This document shows, one piece after another, positions 19,801-58,813 of a stretch of DNA of 64,000 nt; positions within the stretch are counted from its first letter, which is position 1, and every line of letters starts with the position of its first letter. Under the pieces are notes generated by a model. It had not been told where the DNA came from and did no database searches. It saw only the letters and a list, made by a program, of their open reading frames with translations. A program made the translations under genes and the position numbers. Source of the DNA: Brugia malayi (lineage: Eukaryota; Nematoda; Chromadorea; Rhabditida; Onchocercidae); contig NW_025062477.1 of the NCBI RefSeq assembly GCF_000002995.4, forward strand, positions 4,994,649 through 5,058,648, written 5' to 3'.

Positions 19801-22800
19801 AAAACTATCAATTCATTTTGTGGTGTGATTTTAATAAGTTTAAATGCATATTCGAGCAATATTTTCAGCAGTTTGCATTGAAATTAATTGGCTAATTTTA
19901 ATCAAATAAGTTTTTTATTAATTAAATCTTTATTCTTTAAGTCTTAATTAGTTATACAATTAATTATTTTTGATGTTATTCTTTTTCAATGCAAAATCGA
20001 TAAAAATTATATTTATTTGAATTATAAAAATTAAACTTTTAACACTTACATGGATCAAGAATTTGCTCATCAACAATTCCGGATTCATTTTTGATAAGCA
20101 ATCGAATAGCTTTACAATTGACATCATGTTTTCGGGATGGCATTTCAATAACCGTAATGGATAGCAATGATGGATACAACATATTCCATTGGGTACGATC
20201 CGATGAAAGCCGGAATAATTCAGCCCAAAATCTATCAATAATCATTTGGTTCGAAATATGCGAAAGCAGTAACAAAAATTTGAATTTATGGAAAACCTGG
20301 AATATTCCAGAGAAAAAAAAAAAGCAATTTCAGTTAATAGGAAAAAACAAAAAAACAAAAAAAACAAAAACGGTTCGAGTCGAAAAGAAATTACCTAAAT
20401 ATTTTTTTCCCAAAAAACTTTTGAAATAACCTTCGAAGATTTTCAAAATATCAAAATGAATCAAAAAAAGAGAAAAAAAAAAAGAGAGAGAGAGAGATGC
20501 ATTGGATAAAGTATATTTAACAATAACAAACAATTATGTATAACGACTAAAACGTTTACCAATTCCTAATTAAATTGAAAATGTATCATTTAAGAATTAC
20601 TTCAACGTACCCATCTTTCTTCCTTATCTTTACCTTACTTCTATTTCTCTCCTCCCTCTCTCTCTCTCTCTCTCTCCCAATTTCTTTCTCTTTACCACTA
20701 CGACAATCAGTTTTTCTTTTTCTTTATCTAAAAATTTAAATTTGAAATCAAAAATAACAAATAGAACTTATTGTTGCTGCAAAGAGAAATAAATGAACTG
20801 GAAAAGCTTTTTTTTTTTTTTTAGAGGGAGCTATAAGCTTAGTAAATACGTACACGCACGTGCACATACACGTACATACACACGCATACACATGTAGATA
20901 CCCACATATACATACGTGCACATACACATGCACACGCACATATAAAGTACATAAGATAACATACACCTACACTTATATATATACACATACACAGGCATAA
21001 TTCACGAATGCATACACACATGCACTCACAGACACACATACACAGATAGTTACGACGTAAACAGACACTTGCAGATAGCAATAACATCAACTGTCAGCCC
21101 AGCGAAATGAGTCTACTGGGAAAGGAAGGTTTCAGGATGGAAAGTAGGCGGCGGAGAAGGGAAGACGGAATGAGGCAAAGGACGTCGAACTGCTGCTGGA
21201 ACACATTTTAGCAATTCGTTCTCATTCTAAGCTTATTCATCTCTTCTCATCACATTATGTCCTCTCTCTCCTTCCTTTCCCTCTTTTCCCTTTTTCAATT
21301 TCAATAGACAGAAGAATATTATATTTAAAATATTAAAGAGTAGATCAGATGGAATTTAAAATATTAAAGAGTAGATCAGATGGAATTTAAAATATTAAAG
21401 AGTAGATCAGATGGAATTTAAAATATTAAAGAGTAGATCAGATGGAATTTAAAATATTAAAGAGTAGATCAGATGGAATTTAAAATATTAAAGAGTAGAT
21501 CAGATGGAATTTAAAATATTAAAGAGTAGATCAGATGGAATTTAAAATAAAAAAATTTTTCTTCTTTATCAATTCTGAACGTTTATTTATTATATTCTAA
21601 GACTTTACATATAATTATGCACTACTACAAAGATGGCGGAAAGATGAAAAGATAAGATCAGGATTTTATATAAATATATCAAATTTAGTATGCATATTAA
21701 GTGATATGACGTGTGATAATGATAAGCACCAATAAGCTTAATTGATGAAAAGGTTACTTCTGTGATGCATGCATGAGAAATGATAATTTTTGAAAGGGAT
21801 GTAGTATGAAATTCTTATTTGATAGCAAAGTTAATTAAATTAGAACAGATTGTTACGGACGTTATTTCAATTTCAATTCTAACATACTGTTGGTTTTCAG
21901 TAAAATCTCGGTGCAAAGGAAAATAATGAAGTTAATCAAGTTTGATTGCTAAAATGTTGAAAGGATGATCATTGGATGTGAAATTGTGACATCAACTAAT
22001 ATGATATGACAAATATATTATTTATTTATTTATTTTCTATTATTATTATTAGCATTATTATTTTGCTTATGTTTATCTAATTACTTTATTGACTATTTAT
22101 TATTTTTACTGATAGTTTTTGGCCAATATGTCAAAATTGTTTTTCTTTAATTGAAGCAAAGTAAAAATTTTTAAATTAAAACTTTCCAAAAATTGTAAAT
22201 TTCAGTTGCAATTAAAACAAAAAGAGTAATAAAAAAATTAAGGAAAGAAAAAATAATTTAATTGCTAATAAAGCTAACAAAAAATTTACCTACTGCTGGA
22301 AAAATGTCGAAAAAACAAACAAACAAAAAAAAAATCCATTTGCAATGTCGCATTTAAAACGGTTTTATAATAGAAAGACGAATGAAATCAACCATAAAAT
22401 GTAGTGATGATAAATGGGGCAGAAAAAAAAAAGTTTAAAGGGAAAGTATAAGTGACAGGTATGATGTCCTTTCAAACAATCAACCAATCAATTTGGATGA
22501 ATTTTTTGTGTTGTCACTAAGGTGACGAGTGTGACAATGAGACATGACAGAAATGTCGAAAATTTTTCAAAATAAATAAATGCTATTCTCAAGCAGCACA
22601 AAAAATGCATTTCTTTACCTAATAATTTGAAAGTTAAAGGTTAGTTCTTTTCTTTTCTTATAAATTTATTTCTCATTTGATAAAATGTAATACTTGAATG
22701 ATACATACATATTGTGTTATGATAATATATCATAAATACCATTTATATACGATGAGAATGTCACAAATATCTATCATATATCATGATAATATCATAATTA

Positions 22801-38796: not shown

Positions 38797-41413
38797 AAGA
38801 TAGTCATTTATCTTTAAAATTTAAAAATATATGGAATAATTTTATTCATATCCTTTCTTTCGCAACTTTTTTTTCATTGCATTTTTCTTAATTTCTTTAT
38901 TTCATTCAATTGATAAAGGAATTGATAAAAAAAAAAAAAAAAAGAAAAAAAAAAAGGAAAAACTGTTTATCTTATCAATGATGTTAAGTTGAAAAGAAAA
39001 AGTTGCATATAAGAAATAGTTGAAAGTTATTAGTTGGATTAATTTAAATAAAAAACTCTTAAGTTGTTAATTATATTAATTAATTATATGTTTGTCATTA
39101 AGCTTCGATGTGCAGCTTGTTTGGTTCTAATGAAAAAAGATCTCTTTTTTTATTATGATTAATAATCATTATTTTTTTTTCAATTCTGTCTTTATTTTTC
39201 GTTTTAATGTTTTATAAAATTAAAAAAAAATGAAATTTGTTCATAGATTTTTGATGGATATAATTGGAATTTATTTTTTTTTCTTTGCAAAGAAAGATAT
39301 CAAAAAATGTTCACTTTATTTTTATAGTAATTTACATTAATTAATTGAATTATATTATCTGAAAAAAAAAAAAAAAAAACTGTTTCAGAAAAAAATTATC
39401 ATAATTTTAACTCTCATAATTTCAGCTAGTTTAAATTATGATCTGAAAAAAATTTTCAGTTATTTTTTTCGCTGTTATTGTTTTTTTTTTGTCATTTGTT
39501 GCAAGCTATCATTATTAAATGGTAATTTATGAAATGTTAATTGGAAATATTCGTCAATCCAATCAAATTAATTATTAAAAAAATTTTGACTAATATATTT
39601 TTGTTAAAAATATTGCTTGAAAAGTTTAAGTCAAACCAAGTACAGGTATCAAATTATTTGAAAATAAATTATTAAGATAAAAAAAAAAATTAGATACTTC
39701 AACTTTCTTTTTTGTTTAGATTTTGTTCCGCAAAAATTATTTCTTATTGAATATTTTTCTCGAAAAGTTAATTAATATGAAAATTTCTTGTTAAGTAATA
39801 TGAAATGCATTTTTATTTATATCTTTTGCAATATCTTTTCTTTTTTATCTATTCTTTTGCATATCTATATCTTATATATCTTTTTGATTTCGATTCCAAC
39901 TTTTATTTTTGCATAATTCTCCCAGTGTTAAAATAATTAATTCATACATAAGTGTGTTTTTAATGTGTTTATTAAGATATTCTTTTTTTATTTATTTAAA
40001 AGTTTTTCTTTTATTGACATTTTTTTAAAACTTTTCTTTAATATAATAATAAAAAATGTTGTATCTTCCAAAAGAACTAATCAAAAAAAAAAGAATGAAT
40101 TCAGCTTTATCATTCATTAAACTGAAACTTTTATAATCTTCTATTTACATTTTATTGTGAGTAATAATAACTAAGATAAATGGAGAGAATATTAATTAAT
40201 TGATAAAGGAAAATTTTGATTAACAAAAAAACTTTTTTAATTTTTGATATAATTGTTTGAAATAATTTCAAAATTCAACCACAAGAAATTAAGATCTCTA
40301 AGTCAATTTATTTCTTGGTTATTAAACATCTCTGCAAGTGTAAATTTTTTTCTTTTATCGTCACTGATAAAATTTTAGCTTATCATATGAAAAATTTTAA
40401 GAATTTTTTTTCTTAAAATTTTAAGAAAAAAAAATTTAAGAAAAAATTTTAAGATGACTGATGTAACAATATACCTTCAAAATCAAAAAAATTTTTCAGA
40501 GTATTACATTTATAAATTATATGTTTCATTAATCTGACATGCAAATTTCAATATATTTATTGAATCAAATTTTTAAAAATTGTTTGTTGCTTTCTATGAC
40601 TCTTTTTTCCTAATCTATATTAAAGGTAATCACGTTTTAAACGTTAATTCAAAGTTAGTCTTTCATAGTTACAATTGTCGTACTAATTACATTAATTTTG
40701 ATTCAAATATTTTTGACTTATCTTTTCATTTTTTACATTAATCAATCAAATTAAATCTTTTTTTCTTGCTTATTTTTAAACACTTTTTATTCGGAAGGAA
40801 AGAAATCTCAACAGCAACGGAAACTTTATTCGATTTCAAATGATAGATAATTTAAATTAGAACAATTTTCTGTTAATGGGCTATTTTGCGCAAATTTTTA
40901 CGTTTCACATTGTTCCCTATGGTATAGTAATTAATTAAATTAATTAATTGTCTTAGACAAATAACTCTGTGGAAATTATTTTGAGTAAATTAGAATTGAT
41001 CTGTGTACTTATTTATTCGAATTATTAATATCATTCATTTTTTTTTTCTTGACCGTCCAAATTATCTACTTTGTTCTTCTTTATAGTGTTAATCAGTCAA
41101 ATAATCAGTTAATCGAATTCTACAGATATCGGATTTGATCATATCAATCTATTGATTTGATCTTTATTTCACACTATTTGTATTATAGAAGTGATAATTG
41201 ATGAATGATTGTGTGGTATGTTTTCGAAGTTATTGAATTTTTATAAAACGAACTTGTAGTATTTGCTAATTTGTATATAACATTTCTATTTAACACAAAT
41301 TGTTGTCACATCAGTGTCACATTTCGACCGATCACATAATATTAGGTAATTAACTATATATTATGCATATCAGTAATTAGTCTTCCAGGTTTTACTTCAT
41401 TAAGTCAACAGTG
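38797..41413. other. Intergenic, transporter 3' flank to RING gene
   Basis: A+T-rich with many homopolymers and no supported exon. It contains a palindromic cluster at about 40388-40456, where CTTAAAATTTTAAG recurs in both orientations and could fold into overlapping hairpins. Confidence 0.5.
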
Positions 41414-44072
41414 ATGTTTAACAATCTTATCTGCTTTATATGTAACGGACGAATAATAATGGAACAAATTTCAATGTTACATTCATGTGGTCACGCATTT
41501 CACTATCAATGCATTTTACATTGGATTAGAGTAATTTATTAATAACAATTATTATTAGTTTGAGTAATTCATTTAATTCTTGTTATCGATATTATTATTA
41601 TTATTATGAATATCAATATTTATTATTATTACTATTATTATTTGAGTGAGTCATTTAAATATTATTTGGTTCTTTCTTTGAAATAGTTTTATCTCAAATG
41701 ATTCTTTCAAAAATGCATTTACTATTTGCTTTTCTAATTTATCTTTAAAAATTGCAATTGTTCTAATTTTTTTAGGTTTTTAAAAAATGTCCGATATGTT
41801 TTATGCCAAAAAATGAATGCAATATTGTTAAACAATTATATTTTGTTACTGATGAAGAAAATCAACAAAAAGAACGAAGCAATTATTCACCTTTACCACG
41901 AAAAAAAGTATTCATTAATCTTTTTTTTTTTTTGCAAGTTGAAAAATTAATGAATCACAATTGCAAATAGTTAAAATTTAAAAAACTGTATCAAAGCAAA
42001 TTATTAAATCATTTTTATTATTTATGCAATACGATTACTTGGTGAAAATATATATATTTTTATAAAGAAACAAAATGAGCTTAAGAAATTGAAATTAAAA
42101 TTTTATTTTTTAAAATTAAATTTTTGAATTAAAATTTTAAAATTATAAATTATAATATTGCATATAATATTGCACAATATTGCAATATTGCAATTATAAT
42201 ATTGCAAAATTATAAATTATAATATTGCATAAATTATAATATAAATGTTTAGATTAAAGGTAATTTGGACGATTTGCGAAGTGATAATGCACTTTTTCGT
42301 AAGCAAAGAGCAGAAGCTATCAAAATTATAGATGAAATAAGAAAACTGAAAGAACGAAAGATTTCCAAAATCAGTGAATGCTACAAGAGAAATACAGGTT
42401 AAATTTTTTTTTTCATTTTATAATGAAACTGAAAAATATTTTCAAATTTTAAATTTCATCCATTTGAGCGATTAACTTGAACCATTTCATTCTATTTACA
42501 TGAAATAAACAAATGTCGGAAAAGTTGTAAATTTCAGGAAAAATTTCCTTATGTCTTCGTTTTTTAAATGAATTGAAAAATAAGAGAATTTTTTAGTTAA
42601 CTGATCAAGAAATGTAAGAGCGAATGTGAGAAATGAATTTGTAATTGTGTTTGGATATGGAATACGGAAATGATGAAAATTTATGAATTATTTTATGTTT
42701 GAAATTGTTCACTGCTTCAAAATAACTTTTCCGGCACTCATATAGTATTAATTGCATTAATTACTTTTCATACTTATTTCATGCAAATGTGATTATGAAT
42801 AAATCTTTGAATATTTAAACTTTTGAATAGTTTACTTGGAAAAAGGAAAATTAAAATTTTGCAATGCATACACAAAAAATAATACTTTGTAGTATCAAAA
42901 AATTGAAACTATGAATTTCAGTAATTTATTTATTAAAAAGATATAAAAGGATTATTTCATAGGAATGATAGAATTATCTGATAAATTCTAATCAAATAAT
43001 ACAATCAAATAATACAACTTATTGCTAATCAAATAATACAACTTATTTCGTCTTTTTTTTTATTGCTTTCCTTGATTGACAATGATATTACATTAATTTA
43101 ATTAATGTAGTATCATTAATTTAAGTGGCTTATTTTATTTAATCATTCAGCTTAATTTCTTTTTTTGATGACAATTTTGTATGTGTCATCCATAAAATCT
43201 ATTTAATAATGACATTTGTAAGTTACATTGGTGAAATCAAATTCGATGTTAACTGCTATTTTTCATTGATAATATAACTTAATATAATATATATAACAGA
43301 AAAAAATATATATATAACAAAATTGATCATTTTGGTGGGAATTTTATATTAACTGAAACTTAAAGAATTACTCAATTATAATTTTTCTAAATACGTTTAA
43401 ATTTACTTAACTTTCTTATGAACTATTCACATAACTTAATTTATATAGAAAATGTGTTATACACTAAATGCATTTGTACGTTCTGTGCAATTTGGCATTT
43501 CATATTGATTAGACAATTGTAGATGAGTAACAAATATATTTTAATACAATATTACAATTTAAGATACAATCTAAGCGAGTTTACTTAAGTTAACCTTACG
43601 TGATGAACGTATAAATGTAAGTGTAACTTTCACTTACGCTTTTCTATTCTATTATTATATAAAACAAATTTCAAATTACAAATAATTTTATTTCAAGAAA
43701 TAAAAAGAAAAAAGTAATCTTGAAATAAGCAGAAAAAAACTTGTTAATTAGTTCTCAATAACTTTGCATGCAGATTGGAGCAGAAGAAATAGAGAAACGC
43801 ATTGCTTAGTTTATGATGAAATGATAATAGAAGATAACATAAAAGTTTTTGATGTAGTAAAGATATATCAACTGATAAGCTCTATCAATTCGTTCATTTG
43901 TCACATGTCACATTGTTCCTTCCTTCCTAGCAGTTTCAAGAAAACATTTCTACCCAGTCGTCGCATCAACGAATCATTGGAAAAAGTTTCAGGTGACCAT
44001 GCACTGGATGTGCACTATTGTCACATCTTGTCAACAATAAAATCATCTTACTATTGTCGCATGAGTAAGTGA
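41414..44072 (+). CDS. Truncated TRAIP-like RING-H2 protein
   Basis: Predicted ubiquitin-ligase-type RING protein. Exons: 41414-41530, 41776-41907, 42253-42397 and a tentative 43774-44072; with all four, 230 residues. If the third exon is not spliced it reads through to a TAA at 42400-42402 (132 residues). The start MFNNLICFIC gives a RING-H2 pattern C-x2-C, C-x-H-x2-H-x2-C, CPIC within the first 60 residues. The next segment, ECNIVKQLYFVTDEEN, followed by a charged region with LDDLRSDNALF, matches the order in TRAIP just after its RING. The long coiled coil and C-terminal PIP-box region of full TRAIP are absent. Exon 4 fits by phase and is open for 99 codons, but it has no family match and its 3' third lies in a duplicated repeat, so it may be untranslated. 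An inverted partial copy lies at 49.4-50.5 kb. Confidence 0.65.
41834..43115 (+). repeat. Inverted repeat B, left arm
   Basis: Runs from inside exon 2 of the RING gene through exon 3 and about 700 bases of the following intron. The other arm is at 49418-50545 in reverse complement. The introns are nearly identical (one AT-rich insertion near 42110-42240 in this arm), but the exon sequence is strongly diverged. Confidence 0.9.
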
Positions 44073-44580
44073 ATGTTATGCAGTAACTTATCCATTAGCA
44101 TAAGTCATGTATGTGACATGAATGTTGACAGATAATTAATTAATTGATTGCTTTGGTAGGGCAAAAAACATAATTGAAGTTTACTTGTAGATAACTTTAC
44201 TTGTAACTTTATAAGTAATAACTTTCATTGATTGGATAATTGGACAATATTCGTTTTCATTTATTCTCAGTTGTATTATTCAGTTCGAAGAATTTTTTTT
44301 TTTTATTTGAAATTATTTACAAATAATATTTATATAATTTAAAATATGTATTTATAAAAACGAAGCAAAAATATTGCGAGCGGAAGAATTACAACTGTCT
44401 GCCAGACAGCACAATCTTCTGAAATATCATTTGTTGATTTCTTTTCTTAGATATTTTATCAATAAGACACAATTTTAATTCTATTTTATTATTTTAGTTA
44501 TTCTATCCAATATATACTTTACTCATATTACCCAGAAATCTAACTATTTCCTTGGCTAACTAATAGAAAAAATATTGTCC
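43955..44580 (+). repeat. Inverted repeat A, left arm
   Basis: About 620 bases that match the reverse complement of 56245-56866 almost without differences by eye. It covers the 3' part of the tentative RING exon 4 and runs up to the 3' end of the left lectin gene. The two arms border the outer ends of the inverted lectin pair. Confidence 0.92.
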
Positions 44581-44610
44581 TCGTTTAATTCCATTTAACT
44601 AATTTTATTA

Positions 44611-47600
44611 TTACTGCAACATTTGAGAGCACCAATCTGTAAAAACGGATTTCAATATTGAATGGAATTATGAAAGCCTTACGGAATAATTTGCTTGCTG
44701 TTGCTTTAACTTCAGTTAGCTTTCCTTTTCGACCTAAAATCTCAGCTAATTACATTAAAAAAAAGATTATTTAACACTGAAATATGAACGAAACAGGTGG
44801 AGAAGAGTTATAATAAATAAAGAAACGATTAATAGAAAAAAGCTTATTAAGTTACTAAATGGATGAAGTAATATTCTTGAAAAATTGTTTTACTCAAATT
44901 ATATTAAACGAAAAAACAATAATAAAACTAAAAATCTTCTCTGTGTTTAATTTAAAATTGCATTTTCGTGTTTATTTTATAATGAATAATGAATGATCTT
45001 GCAAGCTTATTGCTACAAAATGAAATAAAAAAAAAAAAATTTAGTAAGAAAAAGATATTACCGGCAGCCGGATAATCATAATCAAAGTCCTGAAAGCAAT
45101 AAGCTTTTTAAAATTTCGATTTATAACGAATTAAATTGAAAAGTCTCAGGAAGATATAGTCAAAATAGTTTAAAGAGCTGAGTGAGAACTTTAAACTACA
45201 AATGATTCATACACTATAAAAGACAATATTAATTGAAATTCATTCGTTTTTTTTTTCTCAACTTTAATTCTCAACGATAATAAAAAGTACAATTTTAAAA
45301 GCTTGCATTTTTTTTTGGTTAATTGAAACTTAAGATGTCACCTTAATTTTACGAATTGGACCGCCTTCTGGAGTCTGAAATTATTAAATCCATTAGTAAT
45401 TTTATATGTATTATTGGTTTTTTTCTTTATATATTTTAGCTATTTGAATTAAATTTTCCTTCTTTTTCAAATATTCTTCCATGCTCTCTCTATGCTCAAC
45501 TGTTAAATTAATAAAATTTAAATAAAAATTGATTGAAACAAAGTAATTTGACAATTTCTATCGTTAAACATCAATTCAACGCCATATAATCACACGTAGC
45601 GTTAGGTAAATATATTTTCATTTTTTTTTCGATGCAAAAGTATTACAAAATTTAGATCATTACCTTAGAAATGAAATTAAAATTCAATTTTTTAATAAAT
45701 GTAACGCACATTTTTGCACCATAAAACTGTTGTTATATCATATAAATATGTATTATTAAAGAGGACTTAATTGATATTTATCTATTACCAAAATTTTTGA
45801 AAGTGAAATAAAAATGACCTTAGTAGTGTCCAACTTATAACGACATATGATATAATAAGCTGGAAATTGTGAATAACAATCCATATCAAAGCTATAGAAC
45901 GGTCTGATATACTCTAAAAAATAAAAATAAAATAAAACAACTTTATCTGTTTAAATAATTTTATGCTATTAGCAGGAAATTAAGAAATTTCAAGAACATT
46001 TCAATATCTGATATGCAAGCATTTTTGTTCACTAAATTCCTCAGTAATCTTACATTTGTGAATTTTATAGGAAATGAATTTAATAATTTGCAACTTAATT
46101 TGATTCAATTTGAAGGATGAAATTTTTCATCAATGTGAAAAAAAAAACGAAAATATGAAAATTATAAATAATCCGAATTTTAATTCAAATATTGTTTATG
46201 ACGAATATTTTCCAAATAATTATCAATCAATCAATTTTGCATCTATCTATCGAGACGGTTAAAAAGATTAATTATGCAGATTACCTTAGCATGGCTTGAA
46301 TATGTTTTTAAAATTAACAAAACTTACGTGTTGGCGGAGCATAAAGGAAAAATCGTCTACAATCCTTTTCTCTGAACGATGAAAAATTTGACAATTGTCC
46401 CACTCTTAAGAATTCGTCGTAATCAAAAGGTGAATTATCAAACCAATGATAATCTCTATTTATAAATGTTAATCCGATTAATAACGGAAAATCATTCCGG
46501 TCAGCATGAATAAGCCATTTATGTCGTTCAAATGCTAAATGGACCATATAACTTTAAAAATTGACAAATAATAATTATTCAAAAAATTGATGTTGAAAAT
46601 TTGCCAAAATTATTATCATTTTTTGAAATTTGATGACAAAAAAGGAATGCAATAGATGAGTACTTCGATAAAGGAATTTAACGAGTTCAAATTCATCATT
46701 ATTACGAATTGAAACACTATCCATAATTGGATAATCTGATAACTGTCGGCATACATCTTGATCTGATGTCGCAATCGTTCTCCAATGTTCATTAATTGAC
46801 GTATTCTTACAAATTCATTCGTACAATTGGTGTGTAAATTATTAAATTTTAAAATATTTTATAGCAACAGATTTTTCAGCTTTAAACTTAGAATAATTCA
46901 TTGGTTTAACAAACAAGAAATATTAGTAAATTGTGATAAACTTAAAAATGTTTATTTAAGTAAGCTTAATATGACTAGCTATTATTAATTATTCATTAAG
47001 ATGTGAATTAAGTGAATTTTATATGAGAGGCAAAGAAGAGAAAATGATATGAGATAATAAGTTAAATGTTAGATATGTAATTGCAATATTGAGATAAATT
47101 AAAATTGTTTACTTAAAATTGCAAATTGCACGATAAGGTGTGTTGTTGTTATTGTCTAGCATGAAGTAATGATAATTAGACGACAGTTGGAGATAATTTT
47201 AAATGTTAAATGTAATAATTGAAGAACTAACACTTCGAGAGATTTTATGAACTAGGTAACAATAAAAATCATCGCCGATTCGTTTCTTGTAAAAGTCGGA
47301 ACCACAAGAAATATCGCCTAAAATGATTAATGAATATTGCACTGCTTTTTTTTTTTAAATTCATTTTAAAAGCAAGTTAAATTATTAGAAAAACCACAAT
47401 TTTACATGCTTGCAAGAATTTTGTTATTTATAAATTGAAAAAAGCTTTTAAAATTATTAGCACAAAAAGTTTTCAAACCTTACAATTTATCTTAAATGAG
47501 AAAAATATTAAAATTAATGTTTGTTTGAAATAGCAGCTAAATTTAGTAATGCTGTCAATGAAAAGATATGATTTATTATCATAAAATTATGCTTGTTTTC

Positions 47601-47737
47601 ACGGAAGTCACGCATTACGTGTTAGCATGGTGAAACGACCACTTTAATAATACAAATGAATGCTAACTCTCTTCGCAGCGTGTTGAGATAAATATAGTTG
47701 TGACACAAACAATAAAAACAACCGTACGTGACATCAT
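44611..47737 (-). CDS. Secreted C-type-lectin-domain protein, left copy
   Basis: Exons in order: 47737-47668, 47317-47232, 46805-46664, 46534-46328, 45913-45819, 45374-45342, 45089-45062, 44709-44683, 44636-44611; about 237 residues. Exon 1 is a signal peptide (MMSRTVVFIVC...). The C-type-lectin fold is read from DISCGSDFY...DDFYCYLV (first cysteine pair), SVSIRNNDEFELVKFLY (the E..fv..L helix), PLLIGLTF (WIGL equivalent), YHWFDNSPFDY (W-x-D-x-S), then DMDC...IICRYK (closing cysteines). Canonical EPN/QPD and WND sugar/calcium motifs are not visible, so sugar binding is doubtful. An acidic/aromatic tail follows. Exon 8 has one extra A compared with the right copy, which shifts the last exon into another frame; if it were spliced differently the stop would be at 44595. 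The paralogue is at 52.9-56.2 kb. Confidence 0.75.
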
Positions 47738-47790
47738 CGGATGTTCGTCTGATGAAGAATTTTGCAAAATTCCATTAAAATAATAATCAA
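47629..47790 (-). repeat. Lectin promoter/signal-exon module, copy 1
   Basis: Contains the left lectin exon 1 and its immediate flanks. The 5' flank and start of the intron match the other two copies (50680-50830 and 52840-53000), but the exon itself differs at roughly 14 of 70 positions. Confidence 0.85.
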
Positions 47791-49164
47791 TCTGAAGAAG
47801 CATTCGATAAAATTATCAATTAAATGATAAATGCACTGAAATTTAAATTTCAATCATATTTGTTAATAAATATTATAAATCAGAAAATGCAGTATATATA
47901 AAAAATTTAAATAACTTTTTTTTTTATAAATTTTTTTTTTCTGTTTTTTACTAGCTTTTTTACTACAGTTAGTATTACAATTTTCTATTACAGTTAGTTG
48001 AATAATTATAATTTTTCAAATATTAATTAATTACTTATTTTTAAAAAAAAATCTCATCCAATGAAAGTAGCTGCAATTTAAAATGTGAATTTTAAATAGT
48101 AATAATAAGTACCCTATTAATCAATATTTCCAATAGTTTGAGATAACGTTTAATGCATATAACGACAAAATTAGCATTGATTGATAAAATTAAAACTTCA
48201 ACTTTCACTTTAATAGGCATTTTTTTCGTGTGATCATGTCATATGGAAAGAATTAGAATGACACTTGCATTTACACTCATTAGATACTGCAACATTTTTC
48301 TTATCATTACCAAATGTAGCTCAGATGTAATAGAACCGTTTGTTTAAGAATGTTGAGACAATGGCGACAGTAACGCTTCAATGTTGACAATGGTGACAGT
48401 AACGCTTCAATGTTGACAATGGCGACAGTAACGCTTCAATGATGCACCAACAAACTTTGGAAATATCATTTCAGGAAGGATTATTCCACTATAATCTACC
48501 AAATTAATACTGTTTTTCTAATTTTGTGAAATATATTCATCATTCCATTCGTAAAACTAAGCTGTTTTTTTTTTTTTTTTTCTTCTGACTTAACAAAGAC
48601 TTAACAAAGCAGTTTGAAGAAATTTTTATTCGAGTTCAGATGGAAAGCAATAGCAGCAAGCAAAAGCACATGAAGATCAGTTCCTGTGATATCGTCGTGC
48701 TATCATCAGAATCTTGTTATCAGTTTATAAATACTAACTTATCACAGTTGTCAAAAACTATTATTCGGTTTAAATTCATTATATCTAAAAAATAGTTCCA
48801 TCCATAATCCATAATAAAGAGTTACAAATAAAAAACAAATAATTTGTTCAATACTCGTAATTTAGTCTAAATTGTTTGACATTAAAAAATTAAAACAAAA
48901 AAAAGGTAAAATTGAATTTTGGAGAACAAATTTTCTCCTCAAAAATTAACAGTTTTAAAAAAAAAAAAAAAAAAAAAATGAAATGAATCAGAGCTGATCA
49001 TGTGATGATGGCATACGCAAATGTCATATTCATGTCTATCATCACGTCATCACGTCATTTATCAGTAAGTTGTTGTTGTAAAGCGAAAATTTTCAGAGAT
49101 TATGTTGCTCATAATTATATTATTATCAACGAAATGTCAAATTGCTAAAAGAAAGAAAGCGCAA
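47738..49164. other. Intergenic spacer inside the inverted lectin cluster
   Basis: No gene supported. It holds the upstream region of the left lectin gene, poly-T and poly-A runs, and a 29-bp tandem repeat at 48357-48441. Confidence 0.5.
48357..48441. repeat. 29-bp tandem repeat, three copies
   Basis: Unit GACAATGGCGACAGTAACGC plus TTCAATGTT, at 48357, 48386 and 48415, with one C/T change. It is more GC-rich than its surroundings. Confidence 0.9.
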
Positions 49165-49266
49165 ATGTTACAAAGTATTAACTACCTCATTGTCATACTT
49201 CTTAGCAGTTTTATGACACGGTCAAATGGAGAAAGTGAAGCATTTATCATCAAAATTAAAATTCTC
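49165..49266 (+). CDS. Possible orphan signal-peptide exon
   Basis: A plus-strand ATG opens MLQSINYLIVILLSSFMTRS followed by NGESEAF, a good-looking signal peptide with a plausible cleavage site. A GTAAAAG donor follows 34 codons. The sequence just downstream is the inverted copy of a RING-gene intron, so no second exon is evident. The frame itself stays open to 49395. It may be the remnant of a secreted gene cut by the rearrangement, or chance. Confidence 0.25.
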
Positions 49267-49417
49267 GTAAAAGTGAAAGAATGCCTAGATTTTAGTTTAT
49301 ATGTATACTTAAGCCTAATCTTACACTTAGCTCCTTTAAGTTCTTTAAGCTATTTTGAATATTTTCATGAGATTTTCCAATTTAATTCTTTATAAAATGA
49401 AACTTCAACAATTTGTT

Positions 49418-50545
49418 TAATTTACTTAATTAAATGCAGTATCATTGTCAATCAACGGAAGCAATAAAAAACGAAATAAGTTGTATTATTTGATTAGCAC
49501 TTCTGAATTTATCAGATAATTTTATCATACCTATGAAATAATCCTTTTATATCTTTTTAATAAATAAATTACTGAAATTCATAGTTTCAATTTTTTGATA
49601 CTACAAAGTATTATTTTTTGTGTATGCATTGCAAAATTTTAATTTTCCTTTTTCCAAGTAAACTATTCAAAAGTTTAAATATTCAAAGATTTATTCATAA
49701 TCACATTTGCATGAAATAAGTATGAAAAGTAATTAATGCAATTAATACTATATGAGTGCCGGAAAAGTTATTTTGAAGCAGTGAACAATTTCAAACATAA
49801 AATAATTCATAAATTTTCATCATTTCCGTATTCCATATCCAAACACAATTACAAATTCATTTCTCACATTCGCTCTTACATTTCTTGATCAGTTAACTAA
49901 AAAATTCTCTTATTTTTCAATTCATTTAAAAAACGAAGACATAAGGAAATTTTTCCTGAAATTTACAACTTTTCCGACATTTGTTTATTTCATGTAAATA
50001 GAATGAAATGGTTCAAGTTAATCGCTCAAATGGATGAAATTTAAAATTTGAAAATATTTTTCAATTTCATTATGAATTGAAAAAAAAAAAAATTTAACTC
50101 GTTTTTCTCTTGAAGCGTTCTTTGAGTCCGGTAAGTCCTTTTTTATCTATTTTTCCTGTCTCTTCTACAAGTTTAATAGCTTCCGCTTTTCGGTTATGAA
50201 ACATTGCACTGTCACTTCGCACATCTTCCAAATTACCTTTAATCTAAACATTTATGCAATATTATAATTTATAATTTTAAAATTAATTTCAATTTCTTAA
50301 GCTTATTTTGTTTCTTTATAAAAATATATATATTTTCACCAAGTAATCGCATTGCATAAATAATAAAAATAATTTAATAATTTGCTTTGATACAGTTTTT
50401 TAAATTTTAACTATTTGTAATTGTGATTCATTAATATTTCAACTTGCAAAAAAAAAAGATTAATGAATACTTTTCTTCGTGGTAAAGGTAAATTATCGCT
50501 CTGACGCTGTTGTTGATTACCTGTATTAGTAACAAAATACAATTA
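49418..50545 (-). repeat. Inverted repeat B, right arm
   Basis: Reverse-complement copy of 41834-43115. It begins abruptly in the middle of RING exon 2, without the RING itself. The breakpoint at about 50545-50555 joins it to lectin intron sequence. Confidence 0.9.
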
Positions 50546-50761
50546 TACAAATAAAGTGATATGATTTGTTATCAGAAATTATGCTTGTTCCTATAGAAAT
50601 CCACGCTTAGCATAAAAATATATAAGCATAGATTTCAAAAGAACAAACAAATAGTGAAACGACCACTTTAATAATACAAATGAATACTAACTCGGTGCGC
50701 AATACGTCGAGATAAGTGCAGTCGCGAGACAAACGATAAAAACAACCGTACGTGACATCAT
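50094..50761 (-). CDS. Chimeric secreted basic peptide: lectin signal exon fused to TRAIP-like tail
   Basis: Exons 50761-50692, 50520-50471 and 50243-50094 give 270 nt and 89 residues, with phases agreeing (70 nt ends in phase 1, 50 nt starts with two bases, then a full frame to TAA). Exon 1 is identical over 70 bases to exon 1 of the right lectin gene and supplies a signal peptide ending STYCAPS. Exons 2-3 derive from the RING gene tail, minus the RING. In the copy the codons for TDEEN have become TACTAATACAGGT, which creates a splice acceptor. The mature product would be short, lysine/arginine-rich and probably helical (LPLPRRK, ending GLKERFKRKTS), with possible basic processing sites. Function unknown. 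The open frame despite heavy replacement change suggests a used gene, but no transcript evidence is available here. Confidence 0.6.
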
Positions 50762-50830
50762 CGGATGTTCGTCTGATGAAGAATTTTGCAAAATTCCATT
50801 AAAATAATAATCAGTCTGAAGAAGCAGTCG
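50680..50830 (-). repeat. Lectin promoter/signal-exon module, copy 2
   Basis: Exon 1 plus about 60 bases of upstream sequence and about 140 bases of the following intron (continuing to about 50555) shared with the right lectin gene. It provides the promoter-proximal part of the chimera. Confidence 0.85.
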
Positions 50831-52839
50831 ATACTACTTCAAAATTATTTCAAAAAATGATAATGATGTATGTTCTTAATAAATTCTATTTTTGAAATTC
50901 TGCGCTATTTTCAACTGCTTAAAAAAAGAGAAATACACGTTTATTAAATGCTAACCATAAAAATAACTTTATTGAATTGATAAAAAGTAGTTTAATTGTT
51001 TTTTTTAGCTTTTATAGTGTTTTTATATAATATAAAATTATCACCTTAATGTATTACATTTCTTATCATTTTTTTAAGATCTTTTTTTTTTTTTTTACAT
51101 TTTGCACAGTTTGTCATTCAATTATTAAATTATTTTCATATCTTGAAGTGATTAATGGCTGCAAAGATAATTACAAAAAATTAACGAAAAATTATAAATA
51201 CTAAACTAGCAGAGAATTCAAGCAAAAGAACTTAGTAGCATGTAAATCATTTTCGTAAAATAATCAGAATTTGCTATCAAAACCTTATCAATATCCTATT
51301 TCAAATTTTTATCAGCAATACTGCTTCTATTTCTCAATATGTCGCCGAAATCATATAATTCTAATTCGAATAATTTCAGTTTAATTTTTAACACAAATAT
51401 TTTAGCATAAATGTATGGAAATAATATAACTGATCAGTATGAATAGTGTGCCGTTATCAGCATTATCAGTAATTAATTGATATAAGATTAGAAGTAAGCA
51501 GAAATAGATGCTAATAAGAAACTGCTTAATTATGTTGACAGTATTTTTCACAGGTAAAAATAACAGGATAATAATAGATGATAAAATTTTAAAATTTATA
51601 GCTGAGATTCACACTATTTTCTTTTTCGTCTTCAACTGTTCTTACTGATTTTATTATCAAATCTGTTGCATCTGATAAATTAAATGTCTTCATTGCTTTT
51701 TATCATCGCTTATCACTGATATCATCTTACGTTCATACATTTTTTCGCACCTTTCCTGGGCGTTTATCATTTGCCCTGAATGATTGTATAAATCATTGTG
51801 TTATATAATTATACTATGAATAATTTCAATTTCCAGAAACCAAAAGGACTTAAGAAATTGATAAGAAGACCAATAATTCACTTAAAAAGGCATAATAATT
51901 CTTCAAGGAAAAAAATTGTTGTCTATAAACAATATAAGCATTTTGTGATTTAAAAATACTACAAATTGTTTCAAACATAGTAAATATTATGAGCAACAAC
52001 TGAAACTGTTAAAATCATTGAAAAAAAAGCAAATAAAGAAAGCAATGAATTGTCAATTAAAACAGTCTTTAGTACGAACATATTTACCGACTTTTATGAC
52101 AAGTTGTGATGTTTTTCAATCATGAAGATAGTTTGTAGCAAGATTGGTGATAAGCGCTAAGGAAAACTTCGATTATCATCAAAAAAAAAATCTATTAAAA
52201 CTACAGTTTAATTTAAAATTAAAAATAATCTATGAATGAAGAATGGGATCCTTTGTTATGAAAAGACAAAAAGTAAAGTAAATAATTATGATATCCTTTA
52301 GCTAACTTCTTTATATAATAGCTTATAAAAATGATAATGATTAGATCACTTATAAATGATTAGAAAGGAATGAAATAAATTAATAAACCAAAAACTTTTT
52401 TTTTTTTCGCATTTCTTGAACTATTTTACAATAAAAGTTTCATTAAGTTGCATCTAATTTATTGAACATGAAAATTACTTTTTTTTAATTCCATCCTTTT
52501 AATTAAATCTTGAAAAATAATTTAAGAAAAGTGATAAAGGAATAGGAATAAATCAAACTAAAATCATTTTTATTTAGCAAATAAATCACTGACAAATTTT
52601 GATTGGTAGAAGTTTGAGTATTTATTATCATTAATTAAAAATCACATTTCAAATTGAAATTACTTTAATTGGATGAGATTTAAAACAAAAAAGTGATTAC
52701 TTATCATTGAAAAAATTATAATCATTCAAATAATTAACTATAATAGAAAATCTAATAAAAAACGAAAAAAAAAGAAAAGAGAAAATCGTTTAAATTTTTT
52801 ATATATATTGCATTTTCTGATTTATAATATTTATTAATA
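50831..52839. other. Intergenic spacer between chimera and right lectin gene
   Basis: About 2 kb of A+T-rich sequence between divergently transcribed genes, so both promoters lie here. No exon or repeat array is supported. Confidence 0.5.
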
Positions 52840-53000
52840 TCGCTTCTTCAGATTAATTATTATTTTAATGGAATTTTGCAAAATTCTTCATCAGACGAAC
52901 ATCCGATGATGTCACGTACGGTTGTTTTTATCGTTTGTCTCGCGACTGCACTTATCTCGACGTATTGCGCACCGAGTTAGTATTCATTTGTATTATTAAA
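52840..53000 (+). repeat. Lectin promoter/signal-exon module, copy 3
   Basis: Inverted relative to copies 1 and 2. The conserved upstream block starts near TCTGATTTATAATATTTATT (about 52817) and includes GAATTTTGCAAAATTCTTCA just before the start codon. Confidence 0.85.
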
Positions 53001-56000
53001 GTGGTCGTTTCACTATTTGTTTGTTTTGAAGTCTATGTTAACACGTAGTGTGTGGATTTCCGTGAAAACAAGCATAATTTCTGATAACAAATCATATCAT
53101 TTCATTGGCAGCATATACTAAATTTAGCTGCTATTTCAAACAATCATTAATTTTAACATTTTTCTCATTTAAGATAAATTGTAAGGTTTTTTGAAAAGTT
53201 TTTATGCTAATAATTTTAAAAGCTTTTTTCAATTTATAAATGATAAAATTCTTGTAAGCATGTAAGCTTGTGCCTTTTTTAATAAATTAATTTGGTTTTA
53301 AAATAAATAAATATAGCAGTAACAATAGTGTTTAAGATGGATAATTAAAAATCAAGAATTTTAAATTTCTAACTTCAGTAGTATGTTCTGATGATTTTGA
53401 AATGAAACGAATTGGCTTGGATGTTTATTGTTTTAAAGTGTTTTCATTCAATAGACATGTTAGTTCCTCAAGGATTTCAATTCTTCAAATTCACTTCATG
53501 AATAATTAATGATAATAATTATTTGTATTAAGCTTAAATAAATTTTAGTTCCCTTAATTTGTTAATATTTTTGGTTCGCCTAAACTGAAAAGTCTATAGC
53601 TATAAAATATTTCAAAAACTAACGAAAAATTTGACAAATTTTGACAAAATATTTTATAGGATAAACAATACATTGATGAATTCTTTGAAAAACCAGATGG
53701 CGAAGGTGACAATCGCTTGTGTCGAGATTATACAATGCATGCTTCACCAAATGGAACCAGTGTTAGCATTCGTAATAAAAAAGAATATGAATATGTTAAA
53801 GTATTATATCGAAGTATGCATTTCATTTCAGTTATTTCTTTTTAATTTTTTTTTTTTTTTTTTCAAGTAAACTAAATTAAATATTTTTGTTTTTTTGCTT
53901 CTACAATTTTCTTCTTCAATTCTCTAAGACATAAATGCTAAAGAAATAATTCTTTTTAATTTCTTAGTTAAATTTTGAAAAAAAAAAAATTATTCATATT
54001 TACAATATTAGTTTTCAACTATCACATAATTGATTTGCCACCAATTTTAGTAGTTGTTTGATTTGTTTAGCAGCCGATTACTCACTGACTTCAATGCCAT
54101 TACTGATTGGTTTAAAATATTATGATGAACGTCTTGAATGGTCTGATAAATCAGCATTTAATTATAGTGATTTCATGGAAGCTGATTTCAAATCACGTTT
54201 TACATACATGAAAAAAGGCCAATGTCGACGTTTTTTCATGTACAGTCCACCAACACGTAAATTTTGTTAATTTTGAAAATGTAAAACTAATTTCATTTAA
54301 ATTATAATATATTTCTCATTAGATAAAATGTATAATCGTTCAATTGATAATTATTTGAAAAGTGTTCATCCTAAATAATATTTTTTACCTTTTTAATTTA
54401 ATTTTGATTAATTGTAATCTTCATATTAGATAATCGCATTTGCAACTTAGCAAATGATTGAATTTATTTTTAATAGAAATTCAAAACTGTAAGATTATTG
54501 CATATCGTAAATGAATTTTGAAATAAGCTAGTGCAATTGTATACTATTGCAATTTCACATTGCTATTTTAATATATAAAATTATCTTTCTTTTCAGTTGG
54601 CCCCAGAAAATATCTCGTCTTTGATATCGATTGTAAATTACGATTTTTCGAATTTCGCGCTGTATGTCGATATAAAGTACCACGTTCTGAGGTTAATTTT
54701 GTTTTCAAAAATTCTGATAATAGATAAGTATCAGTTAAACTATCTCGAATACTACGTATTCATAAGATATAATAACAGTTTTATAATACACAAATGTATA
54801 TCATATTTATACATTATTAATAATTTAAGTGATTAAAAAACTGAAATTTATTTTAATTTTTAAAGTAATGTTTAAAATTCCGTAACACTTTTGCATCGAA
54901 AAAAAAAAGAGAAATAAATTATGAATGAAATATATTTACTTTGTGCTATGTGTGATTACTGCCATTGAATTGACGTTTAACAATAGAAATTATCAAATTA
55001 TATCGTTTCAACCAATTTCATTTAAACTTTATTGATTTAATTTTTAAGTATGAAGAAATGTTTTGAAATAGAAAGAAATTTTAACTCCAATAATTGAAAT
55101 ATTTATACTTTATTACTTACTAATGAGTAGTGGGAATACGAACGTAGAAAATATGTGATTGAGATTACAGGGAAAACATTCCCGGATGACATTTAATTAA
55201 AATCAATTTCAGCTTGATGTCCAACCGGTCCCTCAACCTGATGACTACTCTAAGTCGAAAGAGGTATCATTTTTGATTGAAATTTAATATAGGAATAGTA
55301 GAGGAATGCAACCTTAGTAAAATTACACTTTTCACTATTATTGAAAATTAAAAGTAAACTTTTCAAAATGAAATTTCGAAAAAAAAATAAACAAACTGAT
55401 TTCATTCAATATTATTTCGATAGTATATGAATTATTCCTAGTTTAAAGTTCTAATTCGACTTTTTAAGTTATTTAGAATGTACGGAAATTATAAAAAAGT
55501 TAATGATAAAGTATATTTGCAATGATACTGCAAAATAAGTTCGTAGAAAAAAGTCAAAAACTGTTTCATTCGATTCGTTTATTTAAAATGTTTGTTTAGA
55601 AAAGAAAAACAAAGCAAATGAAATATTTTTTCGATCTTAACTTTCCTGAAAAATTTTCGCTTTGTTTTCTATAAATTTAAATTTTAAAATGTTTAATGTT
55701 TTAGATTAATGAAAATTTGGACTACCACGATTATTGGCATGAAAGTAATTTTTTTTCCTAAGCAACATTGATTATTTTAATTTTATTTTTTTGGCTATGA
55801 ACATACAAAACTCTTTCGTTTAAAATAAATATATATTTAAATTAAAAACACCTGACAAAATGGGAAATTTTTATTACTATTTCTTTGCTTAATATAGTTT
55901 GAGTAAAGTAATTATTCAGGAATATTACTTCATACATTCTGTTTATTTTTGTTCATATTTAAAGATATAAATATCGTTTTTTTTCGATTTTTTTTTTTTT

Positions 56001-56219
56001 TTTGATATCGTTAGCTGAAATTTCAGTTGTATAGAAGAAATGATTGCAGCAAAAGCAATGACAAGCAATTATTCCGTAAGACATATATATATATATTTTT
56101 TTTTTATTAACACGAAATTCTTTTCAATGAATCCAAAAAATTTCATAATAATTTCATTAATATTGAAATCTTCACAGATTAGAGCTCTTGCAGCTTTCAA
56201 CAATAATGGAATTAATTAA
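52906..56219 (+). CDS. Secreted C-type-lectin-domain protein, right copy
   Basis: Exons: 52906-52975, 53379-53458, 53660-53813, 54071-54256, 54597-54691, 55213-55263, 55705-55744, 56050-56075, 56178-56219; 744 nt, 247 residues, all phases consistent. Signal peptide in exon 1. The lectin fold shows CSDDFEMKR...VYCFKVF, NRLCRDY, SVSIRNKKEYEYVKVLY, PLLIGLKYYDE, LEWSDKSAFNYSDF, QCRRFFMYSPP, DIDCKLRFFEFRAVCRYKV. The EPN/QPD and WND motifs are missing. One NGT sequon lies in exon 3. The tail after the domain is proline- and aspartate-rich (VQPVPQPDDYSKSKE) and ends in a short LAAFNNNGIN segment. The same exon layout as the left copy proves common origin, yet most surface residues differ. Likely role: extracellular or host-interface recognition or defence; this is inference. 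Confidence 0.8.
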
Positions 56220-56244
56220 AGGGGACTAACAATATTTGAATTAA

Positions 56245-56866
56245 GGACAATATTTTTTCTATTAGTTAGCCAAGGAAATAGTTAGATTTCTGGGTAATAT
56301 GAGTAAAGTATATATTGGATAGAATAACTAAAATAATAAAATAGAATTAAAATTGTGTCTTATTGATAAAATATCTAAGAAAAGAAATCAACAAATGATA
56401 TTTCAGAAGATTGTGCTGTCTGGCAGATAGTTGTAATTCTTCCGCTCGCAATATTTTTGCTTCGTTTTTATAAATACATATTTTAAATTATATAAATATT
56501 ATTTGTAAATAATTTCAAATAAAAAAAAAAAATTCTTCGAACTGAATAATACAACTGAGAATAAATGAAAACGAATATTGTCCAATTATCCAATCAATGA
56601 AAGTTATTACTTATAAAGTTACAAGTAAAGTTATCTACAAGTAAACTTCAATTATGTTTTTTGCCCTACCAAAGCAATCAATTAATTAATTATCTGTCAA
56701 CATTCATGTCACATACATGACTTATGCTAATGGATAAGTTACTGCATAACATTCACTTACTCATGCAACAATAGTAAGATGATTTTATTGTTGACAAGAT
56801 GTGACAATAATGCACATCCAGTGCATGGTCACCTGAAACTTTTTCCAATGATTCATTTGGCGACAA
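56245..56866 (-). repeat. Inverted repeat A, right arm
   Basis: Near-identical reverse complement of 43955-44580, starting just after the right lectin stop codon. The frame at 56779-56964 is an antisense shadow of this repeat. Confidence 0.92.
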
Positions 56867-58813
56867 CTGACTTCATAGTATCTAATGGATCATTCTGTTC
56901 ACAATTAAAATCAGCACTACTTCAAATTATTTTCTATTCAGTAATGCGTAAAAGTATGGTTTGATGATTTTAAAATGGTTTGCGCGACATTCATTTTACC
57001 CCTTAATGACCTCTGACCTTTACGAATTTTGTTCTTGAATTAATTATTAGTTAAGATGCTACAATTTATAACATTTTTCTGAGTCGAATTTTCACTTTTA
57101 TAAATAATATATATTTTGCTGCACAAATCATAACATAGATTTTGAGATATTGGAATAATTCATTCCAGGGAAGTGCTTCCGAAATGAATTATTCGCATTA
57201 TATTCTCCCATTTTTTCTTTCAGCACGATGATTCGCTTCCTTTTTCTTTTGCAAAATTTTTTATATTTGATATTATCTTGATATTATGTATGATATCTTT
57301 TATCATTTTAAGTAAAATAAAACTTTTTTCTTCTTGGCAAATTTAAAACTACATTTTTTGATAAATTTACGCTGCATTTTTAGTATTATGTTCACATTAT
57401 ATTTTAGCAAAAAATTATGCTCAATTTTTGATCAATTTACGCGGAATTTTTAATAAATTTATCCTATATTTTTTGCAAAAAACTATGCTTTATTTTCGAT
57501 CAATTAACATAGAATTTTTATCAAAGCTATGCTACATTTTTCATAAAAACATATAATAGAAATGCGCTAATGTCACAGCTCTATGATCTTTCCATTTAAC
57601 ACAAATATATGATGAAAAATGGCAGATTGTATGGATGAAATTACTCTAAGAATTGCATCAAATCAATTCATTGCTGGAAAATGGTCAAATATTTGATTTC
57701 CTTTGGTCACATTGTCACAAGAGGAGGACATTGTATAGGAAAGAAGTATCAACCCGCCAATAATAATTTCACTAGCTTTAGTCTAAGGGTGTATGTATGT
57801 GTGCATGTGTGTGTGTATGTATGCCATTGTTACTGGTCACTGGTCATTATGTTGGTCACTTGAGTATATCTAATATTAGATATGTGAGCAAGAAGAGATC
57901 ACACATTGCTTCCTATATAAAATATCTGATTTCTTTAAATCTCTCACACAAACTACTATCTCTCATTTCCTTTGCTCTTAAATTTCTTCATTTCTCTTAC
58001 TGTATGATTCATCAAATCTCTGCCTAAACCATAATATTTTCATCGTTATCACTTTGCATTTTGCACATAGTTCACAATTTCTTTCACTTTCTGTTCTATC
58101 AAATTATTCTATTTTCTTCTTCTCTAATTGGGCGGTTTTTGTTTTTGTTTTTTGTTCTCCTTCCTTCGGCGGCTTTTCTCTCTTTTTTTTCTGCTCCCTT
58201 TTTAGGCGGGTGTTAAATGTTGGTACCATTAGCTGGGTATATAAATTCGAGAATACTTTTGCTACATTTCATTTCATCTTCCGTTCATCATCATCATCAT
58301 CATCAAATTCTTAGATGGTCACTCTCTTCTTATTAGTTGGTTACGATTGGTCAGAAAGAGGGGTCATTCAATTTAGCTCAGATTTATAGGGTTTAGTTTT
58401 AGTTTTGGGCAATTTAATATTGAAACATTTCCATTCTTAAGCAGTCTGTAAACTCATCGTAACATTTTACTGCTTATAGTTAGTCATCGCTGTTAGTAAG
58501 AGAGAGTGGGAAAAGGAGAAAGAGAGAGCGGTCATTCAAATCTTTTAGCAGCACCTCAAATTCATCTTTCTTTTTCTGTCTTATTTTGTTCCTACGATTA
58601 TGTTGGGATTAACCAATTTGACCTAATACATTGTAATTTTTAATTGATATCTGCTGTACGGTAGTAATCTCTAAAAGATATGATCTTCTTGCAGTGTTTC
58701 TCTCATAGAAGTTTCACAGAAAAATTCATAAAAATTCATTTTCTGTGGGCGGAGAATTTTCAGGTTTTTCAAGTTTACATCTTACTACTTACCATACACT
58801 AACATTCACCATC
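56867..58813. other. Intergenic, upstream of HMG gene
   Basis: No gene supported; the open frames between 57681 and 58314 are low-complexity. From about 57900 the sequence becomes pyrimidine-rich, with CATCAT repeats near 58285-58305 and a GA-rich block at 58499-58530, as expected of a nematode promoter and 5' untranslated region. A TTTTCAG at 58757-58763, 50 bases before the ATG, could be a trans-splice acceptor. Confidence 0.4.

Follow-up and report, generated by a model that had tools for sequence, protein, structure and literature searches.

Why should the exons of two gene copies be more diverged than the non-coding DNA around them? This question was raised by a locus of Brugia malayi that holds a RING gene (A) and an inverted, truncated copy of it (A'). 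A sequence-only reading of the 64,000-nucleotide stretch concerned, which is called the window below, had noted the contrast and had ascribed it to diversifying selection or to patchy gene conversion. The features of the locus are collected in Table 1.

Table 1. Features of the locus, numbered by position in the window except in the first line.
Feature	Position	Strand	Basis or remark
Window in the assembly	C137:4994649-5058648		64 kb of 86.8 Mb
RING gene (A) exon 1, RING-H2 first half	41414..41530	+	Gene model; Pfam RING matches at residues 7-47 above cut-off; B. pahangi P0001
RING gene exon 2	41776..41907	+	AG..GT, phase 0; matches P0001
RING gene intron 2	41908..42252	+	Alignment with the 227-base intron of the chimera
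RING gene exon 3	42253..42402	+	TAA at 42400-42402; 40/145 mismatches to the chimera up to 42397
3' UTR/flank tract, inferred conversion tract	42430..42961		0/532 mismatches to 49532-50063 (inverted); exact identity rechecked
Second near-identical place	43968..44581		4/614 mismatches to 56244-56857 (inverted)
B, C-type-lectin-like gene Bm357	45819..47737	-	P0005 100% identical over 200 modelled residues
Bm357 exons	47668-47737, 47232-47317, 46664-46805, 46328-46534, 45819-45913	-	Further 3' exons not placed
Chimera (A') exon 3 with TAA stop	50094..50243	-	Gene model, alignment
Chimera exon 2, 3' part of RING exon 2	50471..50520	-	Predicted acceptor inside former coding sequence
Junction of lectin-gene-like intron 1 and RING exon 2 sequence	50545..50550		B' similarity ends at 50550, RING exon 2 similarity at 50544
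Third near-identical place, signal exon and flanks	50642..50825		99% to 52842-53025 (inverted)
Chimera exon 1, predicted signal peptide	50692..50761	-	All 70 bases identical to B' exon 1
B', diverged inverted copy of B, Bm9329	52906..54691	+	Gene model; P0011
Bm9329 exons	52906-52975, 53379-53458, 53660-53813, 54071-54256, 54597-54691	+	Gene model

The gene model of the RING gene has three exons and a product of 132 residues. In Pfam the product matched zf-RING_2 with 31.4 bits, the curated cut-off being 27.3, and the best E value against RING chains of the PDB was 5e-6. The query in the searches for the RING domain and for RING relatives was a longer model of 230 residues with a fourth exon (43774-44072, open and in phase). 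The Pfam RING matches and the match to the B. pahangi protein P0001 fall within exons 1-3 of that model, and protein matches in the assembly at query residues 129-230 depend on the fourth exon. We dropped this exon, because a stop follows exon 3 and three of four relatives end there. A protein search with the 230-residue model listed the B. pahangi RING protein and no B. malayi entry for 41414-42402, and the RING gene may be absent from the B. malayi annotation.

The stop is in frame in both copies: GGT TAA at 42397-42402 in the RING copy, and AGT TAA at 50099-50094 in the chimera. The annotated relatives P0001, P0003 and P0004 terminate at the corresponding residue, and the annotated end of P0002 differs. 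Since the reading frame closes at this TAA in each copy, the nearly identical DNA beyond it is probably 3' UTR and flank; it includes an AATAAA at 42504, near which the RING transcript may end. It had been described as an almost identical intron; the identity stands (0/532), and the label of intron probably does not.

Alignment shows the modelled gene in the inverted copy to be a chimera, in which exon 1 and the start of the intron of the neighbouring lectin-like gene are joined to the RING gene inside its exon 2. The chimera model comprises 89 residues in three exons on the minus strand, and over 184 bases that take in exon 1 and the first part of the intron it is 99% identical to the lectin-like gene B'. 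The splice acceptor of the model sits within the coding sequence of the RING gene, and the junction in the B. pahangi protein P0002 is at the same place. The junction is downstream of the RING cysteines; the RING domain is absent from the chimera, and no Pfam family was found at E<=1. The stretch of residues 5-20 is strongly hydrophobic by its mean hydropathy of 2.1, and the predicted mature part, with the cleavage point assumed, has 67 residues, a net charge of +8 and no cysteine. Exon 1 is thus predicted to encode a signal peptide, and the spliced product is predicted to have a basic, exported mature part. For the Pfam, relative and junction comparisons, the chimera query held 88 of the 89 residues, the last one missing.

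To measure the contrast, we aligned 41834-42980 with the reverse complement of 49512-50544 and counted mismatches at ungapped sites. The compared part of exon 2 (41834-41907) had 17 mismatches in 74 sites, intron 2 had 5 in 227, and exon 3 had 40 in 145; the first 32 bases past exon 3 had 3, and the tract beyond them had none. In consecutive windows of 40 sites the mismatches numbered 10 and 7, then 0-2 in the intron, then 9, 10, 12 and 3, then thirteen times 0, and finally 5 and 2. The longest identical run downstream was 534 sites, a length that none of 20000 shuffles of the mismatches reached (maximum 207). The contrast between exons and non-coding DNA is thus upheld by a proper alignment and by sliding windows, and the earlier estimates for the parts were close: about 38 differences in about 146 bases had been claimed for 42253-42397, and an upstream intron very close apart from indels, which amount here to about 118 additional AT-rich bases in the RING copy. 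This AT-rich expansion of intron 2 (about 42097-42240) consists of two blocks, is present in the RING copy only, and carries repeats like AATATTGCA.

The edges of divergence are abrupt, yet they are offset from the exon borders. That is, a few mismatches persist just past exon 3 (3/32) before the identity begins (0/532), as is expected for the end of a conversion tract.

Then the silent and non-silent sites of the exons were compared. Across 64 codons, 10.0 of 38.7 silent sites and 40.0 of 153.3 non-silent sites differed, so that dN/dS is 1.01 (dS 0.317, dN 0.321); bootstrapping placed pN-pS between -0.16 and 0.14. Divergence in the exons is therefore about 26% for both classes of site. Of the 48 codons of exon 3, 17 were identical, 5 differed silently only, and 26 changed the amino acid. 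Among the comparable fourfold sites, 2 of 9 differed. About five silent codons had indeed been claimed for exon 3, with the implication that this is few; given how few silent sites exon 3 offers, the count is not low. For exon 2, about eight changed codons and no silent one had been claimed, and we counted 7 changes of amino acid in 16 codons. Since the other nine show no silent difference, the silent signal is carried mainly by exon 3, and the coding comparison is one of just 64 codons.

Silent divergence was also high when the 31 codons with an unchanged amino acid were taken separately: 5 of their 18.7 silent sites differed, every one of the five within exon 3, whereas the non-coding DNA had 5 differences in 761 sites (Fisher p about 1e-6). 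With the silent sites rounded to 10/39, the silent divergence of the exons was far above the divergence of intron 2 (5/227), with a Fisher p of 2.7e-6, and above that of the 3' flank (0/534), with a p of 6.5e-13. Because the silent exon sites are as diverged as the amino-acid sites, the exon sequence appears old throughout, and the anomaly is the apparent youth of the non-coding DNA.

These values bear on the possibility that strong diversifying selection acted on the exons after a recent duplication, in the manner of venom genes, so that the introns would give the neutral rate. Such selection would account for exon divergence far above that of the introns and for the 26 amino-acid changes in exon 3, and the hydrophobic, signal-peptide-like N-terminus of the chimera makes a new role plausible. 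However, the silent sites are equally diverged (dS 0.32, omega 1.01), and in exon 3 the first, second and third codon positions differ in 15, 10 and 14 of the 48 codons. Selection on amino acids alone does not lift silent divergence above intron divergence; the excess of silent over intron divergence means that the non-coding DNA has been either reset or constrained. The dN/dS ratio of the exons, proposed by the sequence-only reading as a check, thus speaks against selection as the cause of the contrast. The ratio averages both lineages, and it may be compatible with an early adaptive burst.

The age of the exon difference was considered from annotated proteins of other filarial species, exon 3 being compared over 49 residues. 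For the RING protein one relative was found among 151 candidates, namely B. pahangi P0001. For the chimera, all three candidates were relatives: B. pahangi P0002 and P0003, and Wuchereria bancrofti P0004. The ending of the B. pahangi chimera was set to KRKTS as in P0003, P0002 being annotated with a different end. In B. malayi, 27 of the 49 residues differ between the RING and chimera versions of exon 3, and in B. pahangi 26 of 49. Between the two species, the RING version differs at 6 of 49 residues and the chimera version at 1 of 49. That is, the exon 3 proteins cluster by gene rather than by species. Of the 27 residues that separate the versions in B. malayi, 25 still differ between P0001 and the chimera of B. 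pahangi, 21 of them with the same two states; the W. bancrofti relative agrees with the chimera at 24 of these 27 residues, with the RING protein at 1 and with neither at 2. As annotated, P0004 is without the exon-2 part and without two residues of exon 3. P0001 and P0002 are both encoded on a contig of 11,241,718 bases. P0003, from a contig of about 4 kb, has RING exon 2 joined to chimera exon 3, and could be a misjoin through the near-identical intron or a true recombinant. In a search for sister-species DNA, a scan of genome contigs with P0002 gave 260 pattern matches, none of them confirmed, and a scan of viral contigs with one 32-base non-coding pattern gave 0 matches.

Since B. pahangi has both exon versions and W. 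bancrofti has that of the chimera, the split of the exons is, at the level of these proteins, older than the divergence of B. malayi, B. pahangi and W. bancrofti. By the same comparison the chimera is currently conserved and is not changing fast, as only 1 of 49 exon-3 residues differs between the two Brugia species. A duplication older than the species and a chimera so little changed both count against recent diversifying selection, and we consider it very unlikely to have produced the contrast.

It could also be supposed that the duplication is recent and that the exons of one copy were overwritten by conversion from a diverged third paralogue. The sharp edges of the mosaic would suit this explanation. 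We searched the 86.8 Mb assembly, the best candidates being scored, and found two matches to the DNA of exon 3 at E<=0.001, with no third copy at that threshold, and likewise two matches to the 3' flank. A third paralogue identical to one of the exons had been named beforehand as the observation that would undo the selection reading, and it did not appear. The RING protein gave 15 matches in the assembly at E<=10; those outside the locus were weak and confined to query residues 4-59, which is the RING part. As the best candidates scored at E<=0.001 include just two copies of exon 3, a third copy that still exists does not explain the contrast. Moreover, both exon versions are common to B. pahangi, and two separate exon replacements would have been needed around a young intron. 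Overwriting of the exons is in our judgement less probable still than diversifying selection.

Purifying selection might instead have kept the non-coding tracts identical, as a regulatory element or an RNA, and the absence of any difference across 532 sites is what such a constraint would leave. Against this, Rfam gave 0 matches in 41000-57000, and near-identity occurs at several places, namely intron 2 with the 3' flank, 43968-44581, and 50642-50825. Moreover, one of these places covers a terminal coding exon for which the database models of the two genes use different frames. A resetting of the non-coding DNA fits the remaining evidence better, and we regard constraint as still more improbable than the overwriting of exons. 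An assembly artefact, in which one copy was polished with the reads of the other, could erase a few true differences between copies about 98-99% alike, but it has next to no chance of being the cause, as it cannot bring 20% divergence to 0%, five differences survive in intron 2, and P0003 of B. pahangi, be it a misjoin, with the intron near-identical there too, or a real recombinant, speaks against it.

We therefore think that intron 2 and the 3' flank were very probably replaced by recent gene conversion, with the old differences between the exons left standing. This is the simplest explanation, because the split of the exons predates the species while the non-coding DNA is near-identical. 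Of the two causes offered at the outset, conversion is the one that we retain. Conversion between the inverted copies, which are about 8 kb apart, would have homogenised the non-coding stretches. Conversions that replaced exons may have been removed by selection, or the tracts may have been halted by the mismatches themselves, and either would leave the peak of divergence on the exons. The RING protein would be intracellular, and the products of the RING gene and the chimera would do different jobs. We favour selection over mismatches as what spared the exons, since separately homogenised stretches flank exon 3 on both sides and the predicted proteins clearly differ.

We also compared the lectin-like pair B and B' on the same terms. 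In one nucleotide alignment, introns 1-4 differed at 32 of 341, 33 of 191, 28 of 124 and 64 of 311 sites, introns 3 and 4 being 21-23% diverged, and the exons were 18-30% diverged. This free alignment flatters the diverged parts, and the intron figures are biased downward. When the exons were aligned by codon, there were 60.3 differences in 117.2 silent sites and 183.7 in 455.8 non-silent sites (dS 0.87, dN 0.58). Thus silent exon sites exceed the introns as aligned, and dN is below dS, which fits conversion that favours non-coding DNA, but we give this result little weight. The abrupt near-identity of 614 bases is a firmer sign of conversion than these intron figures, the adjoining stretches having 20 mismatches in 109 and 15 in 47 aligned sites. 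Since introns 3 and 4 of the pair are 21-23% diverged and yet this one stretch has 4 mismatches in 614, patchy near-identity recurs across the locus. The exons are not always spared, because 43968-44581 contains a terminal coding exon and 50642-50825 a first exon.

The last exon common to Bm357 and Bm9329 (43968-44581 and 56244-56857) is read in different frames in the database models, by which Bm9329 ends after a few residues and is without the hydrophobic tail of Bm357 (P0005). Bm357 is named a C-type lectin by UniProt; neither B nor B' had a C-type lectin match in Pfam, and a structure model of Bm357 built from six sequences had a mean pLDDT of 44.8, too poor for a fold search. In the part of PMC6742230 that matches the name, Bm357 is given, as a C-type lectin, among potential GPI-anchored proteins. 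The text matched in PMC4699822 is the longer name Bm3576 and not Bm357, and none of the papers found with the two lectin-like gene names mentions Bm9329. Three exon-like matches to Bm357, with 43-49% identity, lie about 3 Mb away on the same contig (C137:2033151-2034126) and may represent another gene of the lectin-like family. The chimera and Bm9329 are arranged head to head with about 2 kb between them. Since their inverted 5' regions, including the first exon, are 99% identical, the two genes may share regulation. Elsewhere in the window there is a tandem array (21292-21616) with a 31-base period, its central copies identical or nearly so and its outer ones decayed.

The pattern itself is already known. 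In the passages of PMC3924837 on the red and green opsins, the introns are homogenised by conversion, and the peak of divergence on an exon is attributed to selection that restricts conversion. The present locus resembles the primate LW/MW opsins in having nearby duplicates with homogenised introns, and exon differences that are older than the species and group by gene; the grouping examined here is that of the exons. Unlike the opsins, the copies here are inverted, one of them is truncated and chimeric, and exon 3 differs at 40 of 145 sites.

In the accelerated evolution of snake-venom genes, non-silent divergence exceeds silent divergence. The present genes are like them in that the introns are more alike than the exons and one copy has a predicted signal peptide. 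In contrast to venom genes, dN here equals dS, and the silent divergence of the exons is not that of the introns (p about 1e-6 or less).

The origin of the chimera is akin to a general class (compare PMC3449122), in which a chimeric gene is born when a partial duplication captures the first exon of another gene. As in that class, exon 1 and part of intron 1 match one gene and the remainder matches another. Here, however, the parents are immediate neighbours, and the new gene is apparently still in conversion contact. We tentatively suggest, at somewhat less than even chances, that the chimera arose as a secreted protein when part of an intracellular RING gene came to lie behind the signal exon of a neighbour and gained a new acceptor within what had been coding sequence, that it has been kept apart exon by exon against conversion, and that the peaks of divergence would be codons guarded by selection in filarial parasites.

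In conclusion, the B. malayi locus is a filarial example of the opsin-type pattern. Introns that are more alike than exons do not mean positive selection until the silent sites have been checked, and the intron clock was apparently reset here. Next to the gene of a lectin-like protein that has been named as potentially GPI-anchored, the locus contains a chimera that is small and conserved and has a predicted signal peptide. If selection set the peak of divergence on the exons, the peak would mark residues worth testing.
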